42,295 nt of DNA from a virus: positions 1-42,295 of IMG/VR virus record IMGVR_UViG_3300044966_000796. One strand, written 5' to 3'. The notes below the pieces were generated by a model. That model had not been told where the DNA came from. It did no database searches and saw nothing but the letters and a program-made list of their open reading frames with translations. Below, in pieces: positions 1,631-41,632 of this stretch. Made by a program: the position numbers and the translations under genes. Each line of letters starts with the position of its first letter. Positions within the stretch are counted from its first letter, which is position 1.

Positions 1631-3064
1631 TTATCTCCTATTCGCATAAGGGTTGTTGTTATTTTTTGTACTACTTCCCGCAGGTCTTTTAGAAGCGGGT
1701 CGTGTCGGAAGAACCTTGAAAGGATTTACAGGTTCAGATTCAGATTCAGATCTAGGTCTAGGAGTTATTGGAGGCTCTTCTGATCTATAAATATCATCTT
1801 TTGGATCGATTGTAGGATATCTATCCTTAGACTTTGTATCTTTTTTAAGTGGAATTGGGTTGCCGTTACGATCTCTTAATAATTCACCTTTTTGATCAAG
1901 CATATATTTACCTGATTTTATCATTTCTTTTTCTTTTTCAACAATTGAATTGGCTTTATCATTTAAGTCATCTCTATATTTTTCAAGTTGTGTCAACGCC
2001 GACAATCCTGTTACTGACTTGTCAGCCTTTTTTTCAAGTTCTCCCATTTGTGCTTTTAATTCTGATATTTTTTTTGTTGCATCGGCTATTTTTTCCTGTT
2101 TAGTTTTAGTCCTGTACCACCTGTAGCCGAATTGCTTCCATTCTATATAATCGTTTTTATCGTTATATTCTAGATCTTTAATGTCTTTCCAAGCCACTTG
2201 CTCATCTCTTGTTACTGTTGACGCAAATGATCCAATCCAATCAAGAGGATTATTAATCAATTCATTATGGGTCATTTGTTTAAACAAATAATTAACAGCA
2301 AGTTTAGCTTTCTTTGGTTGAGTAGTTATGTATTTATCATTAATATATTTTGGATCTAATGGAACATAGTTTTGAACAAAATCATTCTTGTAATCAATAT
2401 CTGCATCTAACGGATTTGGGGTTATTTTTCTGTCTCTGGAATAAAGATCAGATATTTTTTTTGCTTGAAGTGTCATGTTCATTTGATCTTTATCAATCAA
2501 TCCTTTAATTTTGTTTTGCAATTGTTTTACAGTTAGCCGGGCATCTGCAAGTTTTTCGGTAGCTGTTTTTGGACGAAACCATATATTTGAGCCATAAAGC
2601 CATCCTGCTTTTTGACCATGTATCCAACCTTTTTCAATTCTTATGAATTCAAATTCGTTTGACGCTGCAAGCCATTGTGCCCTAGCATCACTGAAAGGAA
2701 AAAGTGATGCAGCAAGAGTTCTATCAGATAACCATCCAGAACTCCAAGTATCAGCAAAAATATTTGTAAAATTGTAATATTTCTTAATTTTTTCTTTCTT
2801 GTCATCGCTAAGTGGCAAATTGTCTATATCTTCATTTGTTACTGGCAAATAATTCCTTAAAACATTTTCTCTTTCTTTATAGTCTTCTGAATTGGGCTGT
2901 AAACTGCCACTGTTGGTGAATCCCGATGGGCGAATTCCTTTACCAAATTTACTGAAAAGATTACCCAAATGTTTTACAACAAATTCACCTGCTTTAACAA
3001 GTCCCTGATTCTCATTAAGGTATTCTGGATGTTTTTGTTCCAACCATTCTAAAAAATTGTTCAT
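1631..3064 (-). CDS. Propeptide-bearing putative virion protein with internal domain duplication
   Basis: 477 residues with AGAGG 7 bases before the ATG. Residues 1-18 (MNNFLEWLEQKHPEYLNE) are a clear propeptide ending in L-N-E, the T4 gp21-type LxE signal. Two segments, about 66-186 and 226-341, look like copies of one domain: NYLPVTNEDIDN versus NYVPLDPKYIND near their starts and KTATEKLADARLTVKQL versus KTKQEKIADATKKISEL near their ends. A coiled motif L-T-Q-L-E-K-Y-R-D-D-L follows at about 357-367. The last ~80 residues are Pro/Ser/Lys-rich. It heads the 3064-to-1 run. No family recognised. Confidence 0.85.
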   Translation of the reverse strand: MNNFLEWLEQKHPEYLNENQGLVKAGEFVVKHLGNLFSKFGKGIRPSGFTNSGSLQPNSEDYKERENVLRNYLPVTNEDIDNLPLSDDKKEKIKKYYNFTNIFADTWSSGWLSDRTLAASLFPFSDARAQWLAASNEFEFIRIEKGWIHGQKAGWLYGSNIWFRPKTATEKLADARLTVKQLQNKIKGLIDKDQMNMTLQAKKISDLYSRDRKITPNPLDADIDYKNDFVQNYVPLDPKYINDKYITTQPKKAKLAVNYLFKQMTHNELINNPLDWIGSFASTVTRDEQVAWKDIKDLEYNDKNDYIEWKQFGYRWYRTKTKQEKIADATKKISELKAQMGELEKKADKSVTGLSALTQLEKYRDDLNDKANSIVEKEKEMIKSGKYMLDQKGELLRDRNGNPIPLKKDTKSKDRYPTIDPKDDIYRSEEPPITPRPRSESESEPVNPFKVLPTRPASKRPAGSSTKNNNNPYANRR

Positions 3065-3157
3065 ATTTTGCCTCTAACTTTATATATGCTGACATTGGCA
3101 AAGTTATGGTTGATTTTTATTAATTATAAATAACAAATCTTTCGAATAAATTCTAAT

Positions 3158-3190
3158 ATAAAAACCCCACAGTATTTCTACTATGGGGTC
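3158..3190 (-). terminator. Rho-independent terminator after the 3215 gene
   Basis: On the minus strand ACCCCATAG pairs with CTGTGGGGT (one G-T wobble) around a loop of about 8 bases and is followed by TTTTTAT. It lies 25 bases after the stop of the secreted-protein gene and ends the early-type operon before the propeptide genes. Confidence 0.8.
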
Positions 3191-3214
3191 TTTATTGTTA
3201 ATTTTTCTTAATTA

Positions 3215-3487
3215 TCAACGATAACGAACACAAGCGAACCAACCGTTGCGTCCTCTTGACACAGCGATCTCTACTGGAGTCCGCTTGCCCCAGAAACAGC
3301 AATTATGTATTGCGTCCTGTGCTGATCGGGTGCTAAAACCAACGCCTTCATAGGCGAAATTACCACCTCTATGTGCCATTCTGCCAGTTGAAGCAGAAGC
3401 ATTCGCAGATGCTTGAGCGGAAAGACCGCCAGCAGCGAAAGATTGGGTAGCGAACAGAACAGCAACAATCAATACCTTCCATGACAT
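3215..3487 (-). CDS. Small secreted protein, moron-like
   Basis: 90 residues from the ATG at 3487, chosen because AGGAGG lies 8 bases upstream; an upstream in-frame TTG overlaps that site. Residues 1-19 (MSWKVLIVAVLFATQSFAA) form a classical signal peptide, so export from the host is expected. The mature part is Ala/Ser-rich, then has a compact C-terminal domain with paired cysteines and aromatics (HNCCFWGKRTPVEIAV, GWFACVRYR). I associate this C-terminal pattern with small secreted proteins of Planctomycetes, from memory only. A strong terminator follows. Confidence 0.8.
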   Translation of the reverse strand: MSWKVLIVAVLFATQSFAAGGLSAQASANASASTGRMAHRGGNFAYEGVGFSTRSAQDAIHNCCFWGKRTPVEIAVSRGRNGWFACVRYR

Positions 3488-6142: not shown

Positions 6143-6469
6143 ATGAAAAACTTTTATGAATGGTTAGAAGAACGAGATGCAGAAATGCTTAATGAGGCTA
6201 AGAAGCCTTATAAGGGCTACAATTCAAAGAAAAACCATCCAGAAGGTGGATTGAAACCATCTTATGCTAAGAAACTTGGCATTCATGCTGGCATTGAGAC
6301 CAAACGTGAAGCTGAACGCAAGGGCGGCGTTAAGAAGATGTCAAAGAAAACTCAAGCAAGAAGAAAATCATTTTGTGCAAGGATGTGTAAAGCTGGTACA
6401 GAAAAAAGTAGAAACGATCCAAATAGCAAACAAAGAGCAGCGTTAAGAGTTTGGAAGTGCAAGTGCTAA
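6143..6469 (+). CDS. Basic propeptide-bearing protein, RKSFCARM family
   Basis: 108 residues, strongly basic. Residues 1-18 (MKNFYEWLEERDAEMLNE) are among the best propeptide matches, ending L-N-E with cleavage expected before A-K-K-P. The mature part contains HPEGGLKPSYAKKLGIHAG, then K-K-T-Q-A-R-R-K-S-F-C-A-R-M-C and ends R-V-W-K-C-K-C. This RKSFCARM-type domain (DUF5872/DUF6321-like, from memory) occurs in T4-like phages and giant viruses. A basic, Cys-containing packaged protein could bind DNA inside the head; that is inferred. Confidence 0.8.
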   Translation: MKNFYEWLEERDAEMLNEAKKPYKGYNSKKNHPEGGLKPSYAKKLGIHAGIETKREAERKGGVKKMSKKTQARRKSFCARMCKAGTEKSRNDPNSKQRAALRVWKCKC

Positions 6470-13204: not shown

Positions 13205-13227
13205 AGAATAACCCTCTTTGTAATTAA

Positions 13228-13255
13228 ATTATAACAAAAAGGATATTAGCGTCAA
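13228..13255 (-). promoter_or_regulatory. sigma70-type promoter for the 13204 gene
   Basis: Minus-strand TTGACG (13255-13250), 16-bp spacer, TATAAT (13233-13228). Confidence 0.8.
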
Positions 13256-13257
13256 AC

Positions 13258-13292
13258 AAAAAACCACCTGTATTATTAGTACAGGTGGTTTT
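13258..13292 (-). terminator. Rho-independent terminator after the 13311 gene
   Basis: Minus-strand AAAACCACCTGTA pairs with TACAGGTGGTTTT around a 7-base loop, continuing into six T. It lies 19 bases after the stop and abuts the promoter of the next operon. Confidence 0.85.
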
Positions 13293-13310
13293 CAGAAACT
13301 TGTTGATACA

Positions 13311-16039: not shown

Positions 16040-16068
16040 ATTATACCATGTTTGACGACTGATGTCAA
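16040..16068 (-). promoter_or_regulatory. sigma70-type promoter for the 16012 gene
   Basis: Minus-strand TTGACA (16068-16063), 17-bp spacer, TATAAT (16045-16040). Confidence 0.85.
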
Positions 16069-18341
16069 GATATCTTGCCTGTCATGTAATATTCAATAAT
16101 TTTCTTAGTTTTTTCTTCTACTCCAAAAAATATTGCAGGATTATTTTCCCAAAATTTAACCAATCGGTCATAAAAAACCAAACTCTTGTTGCAATGTTTC
16201 TCAATTAACAATTTAAACTTCTGTGGGTCACAACCACATGTTATTGAAAACAAAAATAAGATAGAATTAGATACTTGAGAACATTGTTGCCCAAATTTGT
16301 TTGTTCTTAAGAAACTATAAATATAATCCAACTCATTTGATCTTGACTGATACTGTTCAAAATAACTAATATTTTTACAAAAATATTCCATTTTGTCACA
16401 AAAATCTTGAATTAATAATTTATTGGAAACTTCACATGATTCATACTTCAATTGAGGAAAACAATTACCAGAAGAACGCCAGAAATTGATGACAAATTTA
16501 TCTATTAAACAATCAAGAAAACATGGATTTTCTTCGCAATATTTGTCAAAAGTATTAGCAATATAAGTCTTGTAAGATATGAAACGAATTTTATTCTGTT
16601 TCGTATATCTCCTCATGAACTCTTTGTTCTTTTTAAGATCTTTTATCAAAAGAATTTTATTTGTTTCTGATGTAAATTTATTTGGTAAATGGTTAGACTG
16701 TTTGGTCAAGGATGATATACGTTTTTGTAATTCATCAAGATTTTTGTAGAGCAATATGGTACTTGGAACAATGCTATTTATATCTACGCTTTCAGGACGA
16801 AGATAATGCATTGCTTGATATTCAATGAAGTAAACAGTTCTTTTATCAGTGATGATGTCCTCTATTATATCTTCTTCGCAATTATCATTACTTTTGATAA
16901 ATGTGTTTGAATCAATGTCATATGTGTGCAGAACAATGTTCTTAGCAGTGTTTTTAGCTTTTGATTTAACATTACTTTTATACAATTCTAATGCTGAGCA
17001 TTTTGAAATAAATTTATTATTAATTTTATTGTAATCTTTAAGGATAAAAGCGTATTCTTCTTTTACAACTAAGAATGACACGACATTTCTATTAAGAGAC
17101 TTTGCTTTTCTGTTTACCCAAGACCTGATGGTTTCTTGAGATGCTTTAGTGTCGTTTATCAAAAAGAAAAGTGTTTCTAAATTTGGGTCTTCGCTAAACT
17201 GAAAATCTGTATTAGTAAAAAGTTTGTTTGTGATATTAGAACTATATCTACATATTTTGTAGAAACGACCTATTTCTATTGTTTCGTTATAATAGATTTG
17301 TGGGGTAATGAAGGCATAATCTGATAATGGATTACCATTCCATGTGAACGCATTTGCAGTTGTGAGTCTGTCATTATGGAAATGTTCATCATAAAACTTC
17401 TTACAAATATTCAAAAACAACATTTGGGCATTAATCTTGCTTTCGCATTTGTTTAAGCTTTCTTGAATGGAGCCATAAAACTCATTGTCAACTTTTGTGA
17501 TAAAGTTATTAAGGAATTCAATAGTGCTAGGTGTGTAGGAAATTTGTTCTCTAGAAGGAGTTACTTCGACAGATCTTGGAGGAACATGGAAGCAAATTCC
17601 TTTGGAACAATTTGTGAAATATTGTTTGCTAATTAATGGGTATGCTTGATTAAGTTCTGGATATATTTTTTTGATATCGAGTCTATATCTGACGTTGTTC
17701 ATAACAACCCAAGTGCCAGATTTTTTAGTATTGTCCCAATTAGGACCGTATTTATATTCTGGACTTTCTGTAAAATATTGTAATTTAATGTTGACGATTG
17801 GTCTTATTTTGAAAACATCAAAAATATCTTGTGCTTTATCTTCCCATTCTTTTTGAGAATAGCTAGATAATGGAACAATAATTTCCAAGCCATTCTTTTC
17901 GCTTGTTGGTTCTTCTTTAAGCATAGAAATACTAGGAATACCATCTTTTCGACAGCAATTGTAATAGAATTTCTTACCATTTATGTATGAATTAACATAA
18001 AAGGAATTTGTAATTGCAAATGGACTTTTACATCCAAGTCCAAATGCGCCTGTATAAACTTTGCTTCCTATTTTTGTTGACGAAAAGAATACTGTAAACA
18101 CATCTTCGATTTGATCTGCTTTCAATCCATGTCCAAAATCTCTTATCTTGAAATAACTAAGTGATGATGTAGGAAGTGTGACTTCAAATGGAATTTGTGG
18201 TATACCTGCTTCAGCGTGTGCATCGGCAGCATTGCATGAAAGTTCTCTTATGACTGCTGAAACTTTATCTGAATAGAGATTACTGGCAAGAATATCGAAA
18301 GCCTTTGGACTGCTTTCAATACGAAAATTAAGATCTGACAT
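16065..18341 (-). CDS. rIIA: rIIA-like GHKL ATPase
   Basis: 758 residues from ATG 18341 (GGAG and AAGG lie just upstream; an in-frame upstream ATG at 18386 overlaps the promoter). The N-terminus follows T4 RIIA: S-P-K-A-F-D-I-L-A-S-N-L-Y, N-box RELSCNAADAHAEAG, G1 box R-D-F-G-H-G-L, the FFSSTK segment, lid G-A-F-G-L-G-C-K-S-P-F, and later PPRSVEVTPSREQISY. T4 RIIA is a membrane-associated protein involved in lysis timing and resistance to RexAB exclusion. The C-terminal 400 residues are divergent. No rIIB is visible nearby. Confidence 0.9.
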   Translation of the reverse strand: MSDLNFRIESSPKAFDILASNLYSDKVSAVIRELSCNAADAHAEAGIPQIPFEVTLPTSSLSYFKIRDFGHGLKADQIEDVFTVFFSSTKIGSKVYTGAFGLGCKSPFAITNSFYVNSYINGKKFYYNCCRKDGIPSISMLKEEPTSEKNGLEIIVPLSSYSQKEWEDKAQDIFDVFKIRPIVNIKLQYFTESPEYKYGPNWDNTKKSGTWVVMNNVRYRLDIKKIYPELNQAYPLISKQYFTNCSKGICFHVPPRSVEVTPSREQISYTPSTIEFLNNFITKVDNEFYGSIQESLNKCESKINAQMLFLNICKKFYDEHFHNDRLTTANAFTWNGNPLSDYAFITPQIYYNETIEIGRFYKICRYSSNITNKLFTNTDFQFSEDPNLETLFFLINDTKASQETIRSWVNRKAKSLNRNVVSFLVVKEEYAFILKDYNKINNKFISKCSALELYKSNVKSKAKNTAKNIVLHTYDIDSNTFIKSNDNCEEDIIEDIITDKRTVYFIEYQAMHYLRPESVDINSIVPSTILLYKNLDELQKRISSLTKQSNHLPNKFTSETNKILLIKDLKKNKEFMRRYTKQNKIRFISYKTYIANTFDKYCEENPCFLDCLIDKFVINFWRSSGNCFPQLKYESCEVSNKLLIQDFCDKMEYFCKNISYFEQYQSRSNELDYIYSFLRTNKFGQQCSQVSNSILFLFSITCGCDPQKFKLLIEKHCNKSLVFYDRLVKFWENNPAIFFGVEEKTKKIIEYYMTGKIS

Positions 18342-18376: not shown

Positions 18377-18405
18377 ATTGTAACAAACAAACGATCAGAA
18401 GTCAA
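18377..18405 (-). promoter_or_regulatory. sigma70-type promoter for rIIA
   Basis: Minus-strand TTGACT (18405-18400), 17-bp spacer, TACAAT (18382-18377), partly inside the 3' end of the 18395 gene. Confidence 0.8.
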
Positions 18406-19432
18406 TATCTGTTCCTTTGGAATCTGCAATATTTCTTAATATTTTGGTTGGGGATATTATTGTTTCATAAAAATTATGCCATAAAACAACTATTTTCTCA
18501 ATTGATTTATTGACTATGTTTTCTGGCAAGACATTTTCTTCAACAACAGATTTGGATATCATTTCTTTTCTAGAAGAAATCACCTTTGGATTACTGACAA
18601 TTGCGTCAACAAAAACGCCAAATAATTTTATCTGATCACTTGGAATGTTTTTAACCATAAAAGATTCTGGTTCGTTGATTTGCTCTTTGATAATTTCTGC
18701 TACTTCTTGATTGCTCACCTTCATAATGCGTTTAATCACCAAGAACTGTTGAACCATTTGATCAGAGAAAGCTCTAGCTTCGACAAATGACTGATAGTAT
18801 TCGTTGTATGTCGAATTTTCATCATAATATTGTTTAAATCCATGTATGAAACAATCGTGTAAGTGTCTTGCTTCATGATGAATTATTCCAGCCAATGCAA
18901 GTACATCAAGACTTGAGTATTGATGTGGAAGCAAAATAACATTCATTGTTACGAATATTTCACCTGTTCTGGGACTTGTGTCCATTCTTACTTGAAATGT
19001 ACAGACTTTATAATCTAGCACAATAGTACCAGTAGCATTGCCGAAACGATCAATTTTTGGCAAAGAAGAAATGTCATGTCCCAATGCTCTTGCTTTACTG
19101 ATTTCAGACTTTCTTATTTTTTGAATTTCTTTTTTACTCAAATTGTCTACAATCAAAATATTTCCCATTATTGGTTTTTCATATACTAATTTTGTAACAT
19201 TTTGATATGGTCCCATATTGGCTCCATCATGACCAGAAGCATACATTGCAACAATTTGATTTACCATACTAATGTTGGAGTTTTTCTCGCCTAAAGCATG
19301 AGCCATAGCAAAACATTCTTTAAAATTAATAATATCGTTTTGTTCTGGTAGATTTTTAAGCATGACATCGACAGTGTTAGGAATGTCTAAATCACCGGAA
19401 AAAGCTTCCATAAATTCATAAAAGTTTAACAT
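18395..19432 (-). CDS. Propeptide-bearing HExxH metallopeptidase-like protein
   Basis: 345 residues. Begins MLNFYEFMEAFSGDLDIP, a propeptide-like F-Y-E-F start, though the LxE site is not obvious. At about 185-200 it has A-G-I-I-H-H-E-A-R-H-L-H-D: an HExxH zinc-protease motif in a hydrophobic helix, with E in the downstream F-V-E-A-R-A-F region as a possible third ligand. The N-terminal half has beta-rich sequence. ATAAATA lies 4 bases before the ATG and no Shine-Dalgarno site is seen, unlike the neighbouring early-type genes. Packaging into the head is inferred. Confidence 0.75.
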   Translation of the reverse strand: MLNFYEFMEAFSGDLDIPNTVDVMLKNLPEQNDIINFKECFAMAHALGEKNSNISMVNQIVAMYASGHDGANMGPYQNVTKLVYEKPIMGNILIVDNLSKKEIQKIRKSEISKARALGHDISSLPKIDRFGNATGTIVLDYKVCTFQVRMDTSPRTGEIFVTMNVILLPHQYSSLDVLALAGIIHHEARHLHDCFIHGFKQYYDENSTYNEYYQSFVEARAFSDQMVQQFLVIKRIMKVSNQEVAEIIKEQINEPESFMVKNIPSDQIKLFGVFVDAIVSNPKVISSRKEMISKSVVEENVLPENIVNKSIEKIVVLWHNFYETIISPTKILRNIADSKGTDIDF

Positions 19433-20138: not shown

Positions 20139-20161
20139 CTTATCTCTCCTATCTTCCTTGA

Positions 20162-20368
20162 TTAATCTATCATTATTGGACAGTCCGATAGTGATAGATT
20201 AACTGAATCGTACATTTTTACGATATGATCTCTTCCGAACTTGTCAAGATAAGTTTCATAAATTTTTTCATAGCTATCAAAGTCAATTTTTACATCTTCT
20301 TTGCGTAGCCTATCCCACATTTGTTGTTTCAATTTGCCAATTTTTTCTAACAAGTCATATGTTTTCAA
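20162..20368 (-). CDS. Small helical hypothetical protein, start uncertain
   Basis: The frame is open up to 20452, but ATG starts there and at 20428 lie far inside the ACP gene and lack ribosome sites. I prefer the TTG at 20368 near a GGGG, about 68 residues, overlapping the ACP end by 14 bases; a TTG at 20353 is also possible. Sequence is helical and charged (LLEKIGKLKQQMWDRLRKED, FDSYEKIYETYLDKFG). No family recognised. Confidence 0.5.
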   Translation of the reverse strand: MKTYDLLEKIGKLKQQMWDRLRKEDVKIDFDSYEKIYETYLDKFGRDHIVKMYDSVNLSLSDCPIMID

Positions 20369-20597
20369 GAGTTTTTTCCCCAACTTTTGATTCAAGATAT
20401 TCGATGATTTGCTGAATTCTGAATCCATCAGGTATGCTGTCTCTAAGATCAAGTCTGTCTCCCAGAAAATACCCTAATTCCATCTGATCCAAACTATCGA
20501 TACCAATTTGACGAAGTGTGAGATTCAAATTTTCATCAATTTTAAAATCATCAATATAATCTCTAATTAAATCTTGCATCAGTCCTTTGATATTCAT
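20355..20597 (-). CDS. Acyl carrier protein-like protein
   Basis: 80 residues from ATG 20597 with GGAGG 8 bases upstream. Residues 24-41 (LNLTLRQIGIDSLDQMEL) carry the D-S-L phosphopantetheine site (Ser35) of acyl carrier proteins in the right helix context, followed by the acidic helix and a closing helix. Family length is 75-80. Bacterial ACPs carry acyl chains in fatty-acid or polyketide synthesis; a phage copy could divert host lipid metabolism or modify a protein. It is preceded by a 170-base structured leader and a consensus promoter. Confidence 0.75.
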   Translation of the reverse strand: MNIKGLMQDLIRDYIDDFKIDENLNLTLRQIGIDSLDQMELGYFLGDRLDLRDSIPDGFRIQQIIEYLESKVGEKTLENI

Positions 20598-20621
20598 TGC
20601 AAATGTCCTCCATGTGGTAAT

Positions 20622-20753
20622 AGCGGTCAACTGTTATTGAAGCATCAAGACCGATCCCGTCTTGATTTTGGTGGTATATCGTAGGAGCGAGGTACGGAGA
20701 TAGACTCCCCTACAACAATAAGATGTCTGACAAAGCATCTCCAGTTGACCGCT
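20622..20753 (-). ncRNA. Structured 5' leader (four-way junction), candidate cis-regulatory RNA
   Basis: On the minus-strand transcript a perfect 12-bp closing helix (AGCGGTCAACTG at 20753-20742 with CAGTTGACCGCT at 20633-20622) encloses three hairpins in order: AGATG/CATCT (20740-20721), GTAGGGG/CTCCTAC with an inner GGAG/CTCC alternative (20713-20681), and an 8-bp ATCAAGAC/GTCTTGAT hairpin (20666-20644). The promoter at 20773 starts transcription about 13 bases before the helix and the ACP Shine-Dalgarno site follows about 10 bases after it. Not a tRNA; no known riboswitch class recognised. Confidence 0.65.
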
Positions 20754-20772
20754 TGATTCTTTCAACAACACC

Positions 20773-20801
20773 ATTGTAACAAAATGCTGTTGTTATGTCA
20801 A
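20773..20801 (-). promoter_or_regulatory. sigma70-type promoter for the ACP leader operon
   Basis: Minus-strand TTGACA (20801-20796), 17-bp spacer, TACAAT (20778-20773). Confidence 0.85.
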
Positions 20802-24046: not shown

Positions 24047-24253
24047 TCATTTTTTAATAGTGAATAAAAAGTTTTCCTCCTTGTAAACTTCTTCTCTGTT
24101 GATTATCGCATTTTTTGGTGCAGATATCCTAATCTTAGCTCGTCCGCTAGTTGCTTTATTTAGATTAATTATAATTTTTTCTCCACAAATTTCAATGATA
24201 ATATTTTCACCATTCTTACGAGTCAAAAGCAAACTACCCTTAATGTCTTCCAT
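24047..24253 (-). CDS. csrA: CsrA-type RNA-binding translational regulator
   Basis: 68 residues from ATG 24253 with AAGGAG 6 bases upstream. The CsrA pattern is clear: L-L-L-T-R-K-N-G-E-N-I-I-I, I-I-I-N-L, then A-K-I-R-I-S-A-P-K-N-A-I-I-N-R-E-E-V-Y. The family motif is L-T-R-x-x-G-E and A-P-x-x-x-x-I-x-R-x-E. There is a six-residue N-terminal extension. CsrA dimers bind GGA in hairpin loops near ribosome sites and block translation, so a phage copy could rewire host carbon flow or time phage genes. Confidence 0.85.
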   Translation of the reverse strand: MEDIKGSLLLTRKNGENIIIEICGEKIIINLNKATSGRAKIRISAPKNAIINREEVYKEENFLFTIKK

Positions 24254-25281: not shown

Positions 25282-25286
25282 AAATA

Positions 25287-25313
25287 TACACCACCGGGTT
25301 TTTCGGTGGTGTA
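25287..25313. terminator. Bidirectional hairpin between convergent genes
   Basis: TACACCACCG and CGGTGGTGTA form a 10-bp stem with a 7-base loop. On the minus strand it runs into TATTTTTAG, so it ends the 27294-to-25394 operon; on the plus strand it lies 6 bases after the stop of the 24721 gene. Confidence 0.75.
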
Positions 25314-25322
25314 TGGCAAAGT

Positions 25323-25373
25323 GATACAATGTATATAGTGTCGAACCGAGACAATATTATATAGTGTTGAATT
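25323..25373. repeat. Imperfect tandem repeat of about 20 bases
   Basis: ACAATGTATATAGTGTCGAA and ACAATATTATATAGTGTTGAA occur about 25 bases apart in the non-coding gap between the hairpin and the 25394 gene. Possible protein-binding or promoter-like sites; otherwise the gap holds nothing visible. Confidence 0.5.
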
Positions 25374-25393
25374 TAAAATAATTATTAAAAAAA

Positions 25394-29079: not shown

Positions 29080-29661
29080 ATGATTAGTTTTTATGAATTT
29101 TACAATAAATTAATGTTGTTAGAAACTACAATTTCAGAAGACGCTTTATGGAAATATATACATCATATAGAAAAAAATCCTAATTTAGATGATTTGAAAA
29201 CTTTTTTAAAAATGATGGAAAAAAAATACAGTGGTGCCAAAATGACAGGTCTTCTTAATGATTTTTTTGGTAGTATTACTCATGGAATTATTCCTAAACT
29301 TTCTAAAGCTGATCAAGAAGAAGCAAAAAAAATAATCAAAAATTTAAAACTTCACCCAGAAGACAATTACAGTCTTATTAAACTCGGATATAAAAAATTT
29401 GATAATTTTCACGAATTTGAAGAATATATTTCAAAGTCAATAGAAAGTGGCTATCCTAGCAGTGCTGCGAAAATTTTAATGGACCCTGAATATCAATATT
29501 GGTGGGAAATGATATCTCTTGATATGAAAAAAGATTTTCGTAATGCGCTTATTGATGAGAAGAAAAGAAAAGATAATCAACCAAGCATATCTGATATGTT
29601 AAGAAATGCTATCAGAGGTAATCCAGAAAAAGATGAGACAAAAGGATGGGATTCTGTATAA
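29080..29661 (+). CDS. Propeptide-bearing putative packaged protein
   Basis: 193 residues. Opens MISFYEFYNKLMLLE-TTISE, an F-Y-E-F start followed by L-L-E, matching the LxE cleavage rule. The rest is helical and charged (LKTFLKMMEKKYSGAKM, ADQEEAKKIIKNLKLHPEDN) with a Lys-rich end. AAGG lies 8 bases before the ATG. Adjacent to another propeptide gene. No family recognised. Confidence 0.75.
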   Translation: MISFYEFYNKLMLLETTISEDALWKYIHHIEKNPNLDDLKTFLKMMEKKYSGAKMTGLLNDFFGSITHGIIPKLSKADQEEAKKIIKNLKLHPEDNYSLIKLGYKKFDNFHEFEEYISKSIESGYPSSAAKILMDPEYQYWWEMISLDMKKDFRNALIDEKKRKDNQPSISDMLRNAIRGNPEKDETKGWDSV

Positions 29662-35392: not shown

Positions 35393-36532
35393 ATGACGAA
35401 TTTTTATCATTGGTTAAAAAACAGGAATTCTAACTACTTTCTTGAACAAAATGGTCAAAAACCGGGAACACCGCCCCAGCCACCAGAAACTCCTGAAACA
35501 ATGATTTACAGTAACAGCTTAACTACAACTGTTGCAAATAAAATTCATACAAATGTGATAAATGGTATTAAAAAAGCTTATAAAGATACTGTTGTTCTTG
35601 TTAGTCCAAAGCTTGAAGACGCACGAAAACATGTAAATTATTTGATTGGCTTTCAGGGTTTTCAGCGCGAGCCGGGAGAAAACATTAATAAGTTAAGAAA
35701 AGAATTAGCTAAAATTGGGAGAGATGCGTTTTTAAATAAATATAAAGAAATCATAGAAAAAGACAGTATAAAAGATCTTGTAGACAAACAAAACCCCGAA
35801 GCCATGCCTAAAGATGATCCTAATGAAATGATTCCAGCTGTTAAAGGAAAATTTGCCGTGCCAAGGAGGGTACTCCAAAAGAAATTCGGTCTGCCAACAG
35901 AACCAGAGTGGGAACAAAAGCCATTCCTTAGTGATTTAGATGACGAACCAGACAAATGGCAAAAACTTCCGCAACATTCATCATCTAAGGGAGATGCTGA
36001 AGCACTGGTTAGATTAATCACTCTTGAAAATAGAATGATTAATCTGAATAAGGAATACGAATCGCTATTCGGCAGCCTTGATTATATACTTGGATCTAGC
36101 AAACAAGAACTTGCGTTCTTGGCTTTGCAACCGTATGAATTACTTGATATAAGTCCGAATAACAGAGGCACCATAAACCCCTTTGACCCAAAATTCGGCA
36201 AAGATCGCACATATCCACACGGAGGAGAAAGATTAAATAACGAAGTTCGAAAATTAAAAATTTCTAAAGATGATGAGACAAAATATGATTCCCTACTTAA
36301 AGTTTGTAAGGAAGCGTATAATGGTCAAAATGAAAACAACATTAAAATTTTTCGTGAACAACTTTTAGACGCAATGAGATGGGGTCTTGAATCGGCAGAA
36401 TTTCGAAGAAAACAATTCCTTCCCTATTTATTTAAAAATCCCAGTGAAATCCAGCCTGTTCAGGATTTTATCAAAAAATTTGCAATATTAGTTGCACAAA
36501 GAAAAATACAAATGGAAAGAAAATTATACTAA
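35393..36532 (+). CDS. Propeptide-bearing putative virion protein
   Basis: 379 residues. Opens MTNFYHWLKNRNSNYFLE-QNG, matching the 5' cluster (F-x-x-W-L and ..E-Q). A Pro-rich linker (PGTPPQPPETPE) follows, then a largely helical protein with many charged residues and a Lys/Glu-rich end. Last gene of the plus-strand sugar/propeptide run. Structural or packaged role inferred; no family recognised. Confidence 0.75.
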   Translation: MTNFYHWLKNRNSNYFLEQNGQKPGTPPQPPETPETMIYSNSLTTTVANKIHTNVINGIKKAYKDTVVLVSPKLEDARKHVNYLIGFQGFQREPGENINKLRKELAKIGRDAFLNKYKEIIEKDSIKDLVDKQNPEAMPKDDPNEMIPAVKGKFAVPRRVLQKKFGLPTEPEWEQKPFLSDLDDEPDKWQKLPQHSSSKGDAEALVRLITLENRMINLNKEYESLFGSLDYILGSSKQELAFLALQPYELLDISPNNRGTINPFDPKFGKDRTYPHGGERLNNEVRKLKISKDDETKYDSLLKVCKEAYNGQNENNIKIFREQLLDAMRWGLESAEFRRKQFLPYLFKNPSEIQPVQDFIKKFAILVAQRKIQMERKLY

Positions 36533-38960: not shown

Positions 38961-39443
38961 TCAATATTTTACAAGATGTGCAGAGCCATCACCATGTTCT
39001 GATTCTAATTCATATCCAAATCTTGGATTTTGCAAAATTTGTGCTAAACGAGGATTAACAACCCAAAGTCTTGTATAGACTTTAGCATCTCTCTCATTTT
39101 CTATGGAATCACGTTCTTGTTCACATGCTTTAATCAATTGCATCCCAACCATTTCGTAACCTTGCCATTCTGGATGAACAACAACATCAAAGCTGTATAC
39201 CAATATTTCTTCACCAGTAGAAGAAGAAGCATCATGATCAGCTTGAACATTTGTATAAGCAGCACCTATGACATCTTCATTATCATTCAATGCGACAAAT
39301 GTAAAATCCTTACTACTGTCTATTCTTATGTTGACCATTTTGGCAATAGCCTCAGCTTGTTCAGCTTCTTCCCATTCTTCTGGATCAACATGTTTAATGA
39401 TTACACTTTCTTGCAAATGTAACCATTCCTTAAATACATTCAT
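38961..39443 (-). CDS. Propeptide-bearing GNAT acetyltransferase-like protein
   Basis: 160 residues. MNVFKEWLHLQE-SV is a compact propeptide with L-Q-E. The body follows the GNAT fold: F-T-F-V-A-L-N-D-N-E-D-V-I-G-A-A-Y, then S-F-D-V-V-V-H-P-E-W-Q-G-Y-E-M-V-G-M-Q-L, where VxPxxxGxGxG is degenerate, and a final N-P-R-L-A-Q-I-L-Q-N-P-R-F-G-Y. Acetyl-CoA transfer to host proteins after injection is a possibility, not shown. No Shine-Dalgarno site. Confidence 0.7.
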   Translation of the reverse strand: MNVFKEWLHLQESVIIKHVDPEEWEEAEQAEAIAKMVNIRIDSSKDFTFVALNDNEDVIGAAYTNVQADHDASSSTGEEILVYSFDVVVHPEWQGYEMVGMQLIKACEQERDSIENERDAKVYTRLWVVNPRLAQILQNPRFGYELESEHGDGSAHLVKY

Positions 39444-41002: not shown

Positions 41003-41632
41003 ATGAAATTTAAAAAATGGTTAAATGAACAATCTTATGTTGGCATAGAAGATGCCGACAGCTCTCAAATAGAGAGAGTTTATAAAAAATCAAGACTAGC
41101 AGTTAAAATTGTTCAAGATTATGATAAACAAACAGGAAATAATTATCTAACAAACATTACAACCATTGCTCCTATTTCAAAAGCAGGAATCTTCGGTCTT
41201 TATAATTCTGCTGAAAATAAAGCAATTATTGGCAAACCATATAACCAACAAAAATTTACTTTCTCACAGGAAGAATTGGATAAGATGGCTAATCTACCGG
41301 CAGATGTTTTAAGACAAAACAAAATTCCAGAAGAAATTATCAATTCTATTCAACCAACTGATACGATTCGTATAAATGTATTAAATATTTATGATACCTT
41401 TAACAAAGCTCAAAAAGCTGGCAAGATGAGTCCTGAAGAGGCACAGATCAATATCATTAGGGAAATTGCCAGTACGATTGTCCATGAAAGTACGCACGAT
41501 AAAGAACGCCGTAAGTCCGGCAAAACAAGCGAAGCCGGTCCTGAAGCTGCGGAACAGAAGTTTTCTTCTTGGTTTGATCAAAACTTGTCCTCCTTGAAGT
41601 CCAGATATCCAGAATTAGTTAGAACTAATTAA
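41003..41632 (+). CDS. Propeptide-bearing HExxH metallopeptidase-like protein
   Basis: 209 residues. MKFKKWLNE-QSY is a minimal propeptide ending L-N-E-Q. The predicted mature protein has I-V-H-E-S-T-H-D-K-E at about 161-170: an HExxH motif after a helix (INIIREIASTI), with E-A-G-P-E-A-A-E-Q downstream offering a third zinc ligand. The N-terminal part is beta-rich. Together with 18395 it suggests packaged proteases; activity is inferred. Confidence 0.75.
   Translation: MKFKKWLNEQSYVGIEDADSSQIERVYKKSRLAVKIVQDYDKQTGNNYLTNITTIAPISKAGIFGLYNSAENKAIIGKPYNQQKFTFSQEELDKMANLPADVLRQNKIPEEIINSIQPTDTIRINVLNIYDTFNKAQKAGKMSPEEAQINIIREIASTIVHESTHDKERRKSGKTSEAGPEAAEQKFSSWFDQNLSSLKSRYPELVRTN

Follow-up and report, generated by a model that had tools for sequence, protein, structure and literature searches.

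Why should a small gene of an uncultivated large phage be preceded by a long and strongly folded leader RNA? This question is raised by a locus on the minus strand of the viral record IMGVR_UViG_3300044966_000796, which was analyzed as one stretch of 42,295 bases (the window). The gene (20355-20597, minus strand, ATG at 20597) encodes a product of 80 amino acids with an IDSLD motif, embedded in IGIDSLDQMEL; in acyl carrier proteins, a DSL motif carries the phosphopantetheine serine. In a PDB sequence search, all 25 matches up to an E-value of 10 were acyl carrier proteins (ACPs) or their complex I form, the best having an E-value of 0.032. Pfam gave no match for this product, PHROGs only a weak match to a family of unknown function, and a single-sequence AF2 model was poor (pLDDT 59.5), with no fold match in the PDB. 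Judged by its sequence, the product is likely ACP-like. ACP homologues in phages were reported before, their function being unclear (PMC5463345). Elsewhere in the window a homologue of RIIA is encoded (16065-18341; phrog_612, 1.8e-96). Many otherwise different proteins of the phage begin with a similar N-terminal peptide of the M..F..WL/F type (1028-1627, 1631-3064, 6143-6469, 18395-19432, 29080-29661, 35393-36532, 38961-39443 and 41003-41632), which we take to be reminiscent of the capsid-targeting sequences of T4.

The first-pass annotation of this DNA had placed a consensus promoter, a structured RNA and the ribosome site of the ACP gene in this order, and all three were recovered. The promoter (20773-20801, minus strand) consists of a -35 element TTGACA (20801-20796), a spacer of 17 nt and an extended -10 element TGTTACAAT ending at 20773; it matches 11 of the 12 consensus positions (TTGACA-17-TACAAT) and contains the TG of the extended -10. 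As the promoter ends at 20773, transcription is expected to start around 20766, 7 nt past the -10 element. The Shine-Dalgarno (SD) sequence GGAGGA is found at 20611-20606, ahead of the ATG, and the leader from predicted start to start codon comprises 169 nt. Most leaders of the window that follow a similar promoter are far shorter: the other promoter-like sites on the minus strand, when up to one mismatch is allowed, have the next gene start at a predicted 11-82 nt, with three exceptions (121, 150 and 196 nt) in which the hexamers are located within genes or an extended -10 is missing, although real and discounted sites were sorted by us with the list already seen and the gene starts were picked by hand. 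Exact TTGACA-17-TATAAT promoters occur four times on the minus strand of the window (4161, 14042, 15068 and 16068) and near matches at 20801, 22961, 24328 and 27355; together they probably represent a set of host-type promoters. Several of them have a similar GGTTGT/TCGTGT start region. A DNA palindrome, AACAACAGCATT-N7-AATGGTGTTGTT, spans the -10 element of the ACP promoter at 20764-20794; by visual inspection 11 of its 12 positions pair, and it could be an operator. An open reading frame of 46 codons in the leader was rejected by eye, since its ATG (20774) falls within the -10 element and is not preceded by an SD sequence. The plus strand of the element region folds about equally well; an RNA from this strand was judged unlikely, as a plus-strand promoter could not be recognized immediately upstream and the adjacent genes lie on the minus strand.

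The predicted fold is closed by a perfect 12-bp helix, P1, as had been annotated, in which the 5' strand AGCGGTCAACTG (20753-20742) pairs with the 3' strand CAGTTGACCGCT (20633-20622). For the predicted transcript, pairing probabilities were computed for 11 of these 12 pairs and amount to 0.995-1.0. P1 encloses three further helices, resulting in a four-helix junction of 132 nt. These are the P2 hairpin GAGATGCTTTGTCAGACATCTT (20720-20741, MFE fold), P3 (20677-20717, MFE fold) and the P4 hairpin ATCAAGAC-GGGATCG-GTCTTGAT (20644-20666, MFE and centroid fold), all on the minus strand. The three enclosed hairpins that had been described are thus all predicted, but P3 is not a simple hairpin: a stem of 9 bp is followed by a one-sided internal loop of 10 nt and an apical GGAG/CTCC stem of 4 bp, the latter missing in the centroid fold. 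In the MFE fold P1 continues directly into P2, and the junction contains joining strands of 10 nt. The structure begins approximately 13 nt past the predicted transcription start and ends 10 nt short of the SD sequence.

An objection to any function is that this structure arose by chance in an unusually long, non-functional untranslated region, or that it was left behind by a small mobile element whose terminal inverted repeats comprised 12 bp. P1 alone does not argue against this. The first-pass annotation held a perfect 12-bp helix to be very unlikely by chance, which was too strong: a shuffled window contains on average 1.5 inverted repeats of 12 bp with a gap of 30-200 nt, the real one two. 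An inverted repeat of at least 11 bp within the 205-nt leader was obtained in 69 of 20,000 shuffles. The whole element, unlike P1 alone, folds far better than shuffled sequences, i.e., for 20619-20757 (139 nt) z is -5.6 and none of 300 shuffles folds equally well, whereby the limits of the element were set with the fold already known, which flatters this value; for the leader plus flanks z is -2.8. Computed for the gaps of the window only, low z-scores were also found on one or both strands at 958-1027, 3065-3270, 13205-13310, 20139-20354 and 25282-25393. Folding showed that each of these gaps with a z under -3 is dominated by a single long hairpin, in most cases resembling a terminator; the ACP leader instead forms several helices around a junction. 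The element has a G+C content of 47% compared to a window mean of 34%, placing it in the top 1.6% of all 132-nt stretches; this is similar to the three tRNAs of the window (46-58%). For a mobile-element remnant a target-site duplication might be visible at the element ends, but none was seen by eye, and no other copy turned up in the window or the searched collections. Chance or a remnant is therefore rather improbable in our estimation, even if the absence of both a second copy and a relative would fit it.

The leader together with at least 20 kb around it recurs in IMGVR_UViG_3300042887_004704, where the leader is identical; the identity of 99.995% over 20 kb shows that this is the same phage. 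It is the only copy found elsewhere, and a leader with a sequence change was not found in the searched collections. Neither blastn searches with the leader and its region in phages and with the leader in plasmids, nor protein searches with the ACP-like product in phages and viral contigs, gave anything beyond this phage. Queries with rIIA, a neighbor and the clamp loader identified distant relatives in viral contigs, all without the leader. DNA patterns derived from the leader gave matches in viral contigs; among those listed none was upheld by blastn or the covariance model, and the best model score was 16.1 bits with the three hairpins absent. A single Streptomyces match to P1 with its gap, obtained in genome contigs, was rejected as apparent coding sequence unsupported by the model. 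The covariance model (R1) found no leader in LR756511, in the related phage G002 or in 79 rIIA loci, although R1 was built on one distinct sequence and would miss distant relatives. LR756511.1 (595 kb) has two proteins in common with the phage (36-37%), and IMGVR_UViG_3300011113_000784 (111 kb) carries the clamp loader at 83% but stops just past it; leader and ACP gene were not found in either, the latter record being a fragment and diverged versions escaping such a search. In a fragment of the related phage (L056:3735-3894, corresponding approximately to G002 79735-79894) a tRNA gene is immediately preceded by an element with a long closing helix, and a csrA-like gene is located nearby. This tRNA gene has a CTTTTAA anticodon-type loop; it was missed by ARAGORN and by the Rfam gathering scan and scored 48.1 bits in a focused Rfam search.

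The annotation had stated that the element is not a tRNA and fits no known riboswitch class, and both statements are supported. For a tRNA, with its 7-bp acceptor and T-loop, ARAGORN and Rfam RF00005 made no call at 20597-20801, while ARAGORN detected three tRNAs elsewhere in the window, one of them also found by Rfam. No Rfam family reached or approached its gathering score for the leader, the best scores being those of SAM-III (13.4 bits, cut-off 45) and DapZ (13.2 bits, cut-off 56; opposite strand). With the riboswitches SAM-I, cobalamin and NiCo the leader shares a junction of four helices; unlike these, it is without an Rfam match. A switch responding to a ligand or a protein could act on ACP translation, be it a riboswitch or an autoregulatory element bound by ACP or some other protein, and the position between promoter and start codon as well as the multi-helix junction with its 10-nt joining strands would suit it. 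However, SD sequence and AUG are mostly unpaired in the predicted ensemble, and forcing the pairing of UCUCCGU with the SD sequence yields -38.8 compared to -56.2 kcal/mol, a penalty of approximately 17 kcal/mol. No competing anti-SD or bistable alternative fold, of the kind by which a translational riboswitch hides the SD sequence, was seen in the folding of the leader. Also no terminator or T-run hairpin was seen, for which reason transcription attenuation was rejected. The SD sequence predicted to be mostly open and the lack of an anti-SD fold and of a terminator argue against a classical riboswitch, and a switch is the least probable of the explanations considered here. Of the annotated cis-regulatory RNA, a structured leader of an ACP-like gene is supported, whereas a switch mechanism is not.

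Alternatively, the element might be a separate sRNA, or a product processed by RNase III, transcribed from the same promoter as ACP. In this case processing would take place at the long P1 stacked on P2, and the cloverleaf released by cleavage would be stable and act elsewhere. This would agree with P1 leading straight into P2, with a G+C richness as in tRNA genes, and with the tRNA genes found close behind two similar promoters of the window. Speaking against it, the element is not followed by a terminator, is separated by only 24 nt from the ACP start codon and has no homologue in the collections searched, so that we consider this possibility unlikely, if somewhat less so than a chance structure. 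Slightly less probable than the latter is that the four-helix junction closed by 12 bp represents a new class of phage RNA, either a structured leader or a processed RNA, which would have its own protein or ligand partner and control ACP during infection.

The consensus bound by CsrA/RsmE is WCANGGANGW, and the SD region of the ACP-like gene, ACATGGAGGA (20606-20615, minus strand), is a full match that includes GGAGGA. The phage itself encodes a csrA-like gene (24047-24253, minus strand; Pfam CsrA 1.8e-11; phrog_9500 CsrA-like regulator, 6e-07), and its product is a possible regulator of the ACP-like gene. CsrA targets were described to have A(N)GGA at the SD sequence, at least three sites and at least two pairs spaced 10-60 nt apart (PMC4066749). 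The ACP gene start agrees with these rules, with sites at 20611, 20608 and 20585, of which the first two overlap; of the 58 gene starts of the window, 7 agree with them, this one included. CANGGA is present in 9 of 45 SD regions bearing GGA, compared to a CA frequency of 6.5%; because the gene starts were picked by hand and SD-like sequence overlaps the motif, this enrichment is suggestive only. The CsrA/RsmA-controlled leaders of glgC and hcnA (PMC4066749) similarly have A(N)GGA on the SD sequence and another site in the early coding region, and the presence of a csrA-like gene in the same phage adds to this likeness. The ACP leader differs from them in that the CsrA motif does not need the cloverleaf, within which CTGGA and CGGGA are isolated weak sites that these rules do not count. 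Speaking against the proposed control, the putative sites fall at the SD sequence and the coding start, outside the cloverleaf, and look like common SD sequence.

We favor, with a probability of roughly one half, a cis-acting structured 5' untranslated region that would stabilize or insulate the ACP-like mRNA while leaving its start site open, with possible control by CsrA at the SD sequence. Promoter-like sequence, fold, SD accessibility and consensus site are computed here, and we infer the transcription start, the stabilizing function and the CsrA control. The stabilizer is proposed as the remaining option, since the features of a switch are missing. The mRNA would start approximately 13 nt upstream of the junction closed by P1, the structure would shield or insulate its 5' end and keep the start site accessible, and the phage CsrA may additionally lower translation by binding to ACATGGAGGA. 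Stabilizing structures in 5' untranslated regions are known from bacterial and phage mRNAs, such as the leaders of ompA and of T4 gene 32. The likeness to these lies in a stable structure close to the 5' end of the mRNA with an open SD sequence downstream, and is one of predicted structure; the ACP leader is larger and contains a four-helix junction. As the other leaders of this phage are mostly short, a long and strongly folded leader on an ACP-like gene suggests that this gene is under special control. A simple lead is that the phage has its own CsrA-like gene and that the ribosome site of the ACP-like gene carries the full CsrA consensus.
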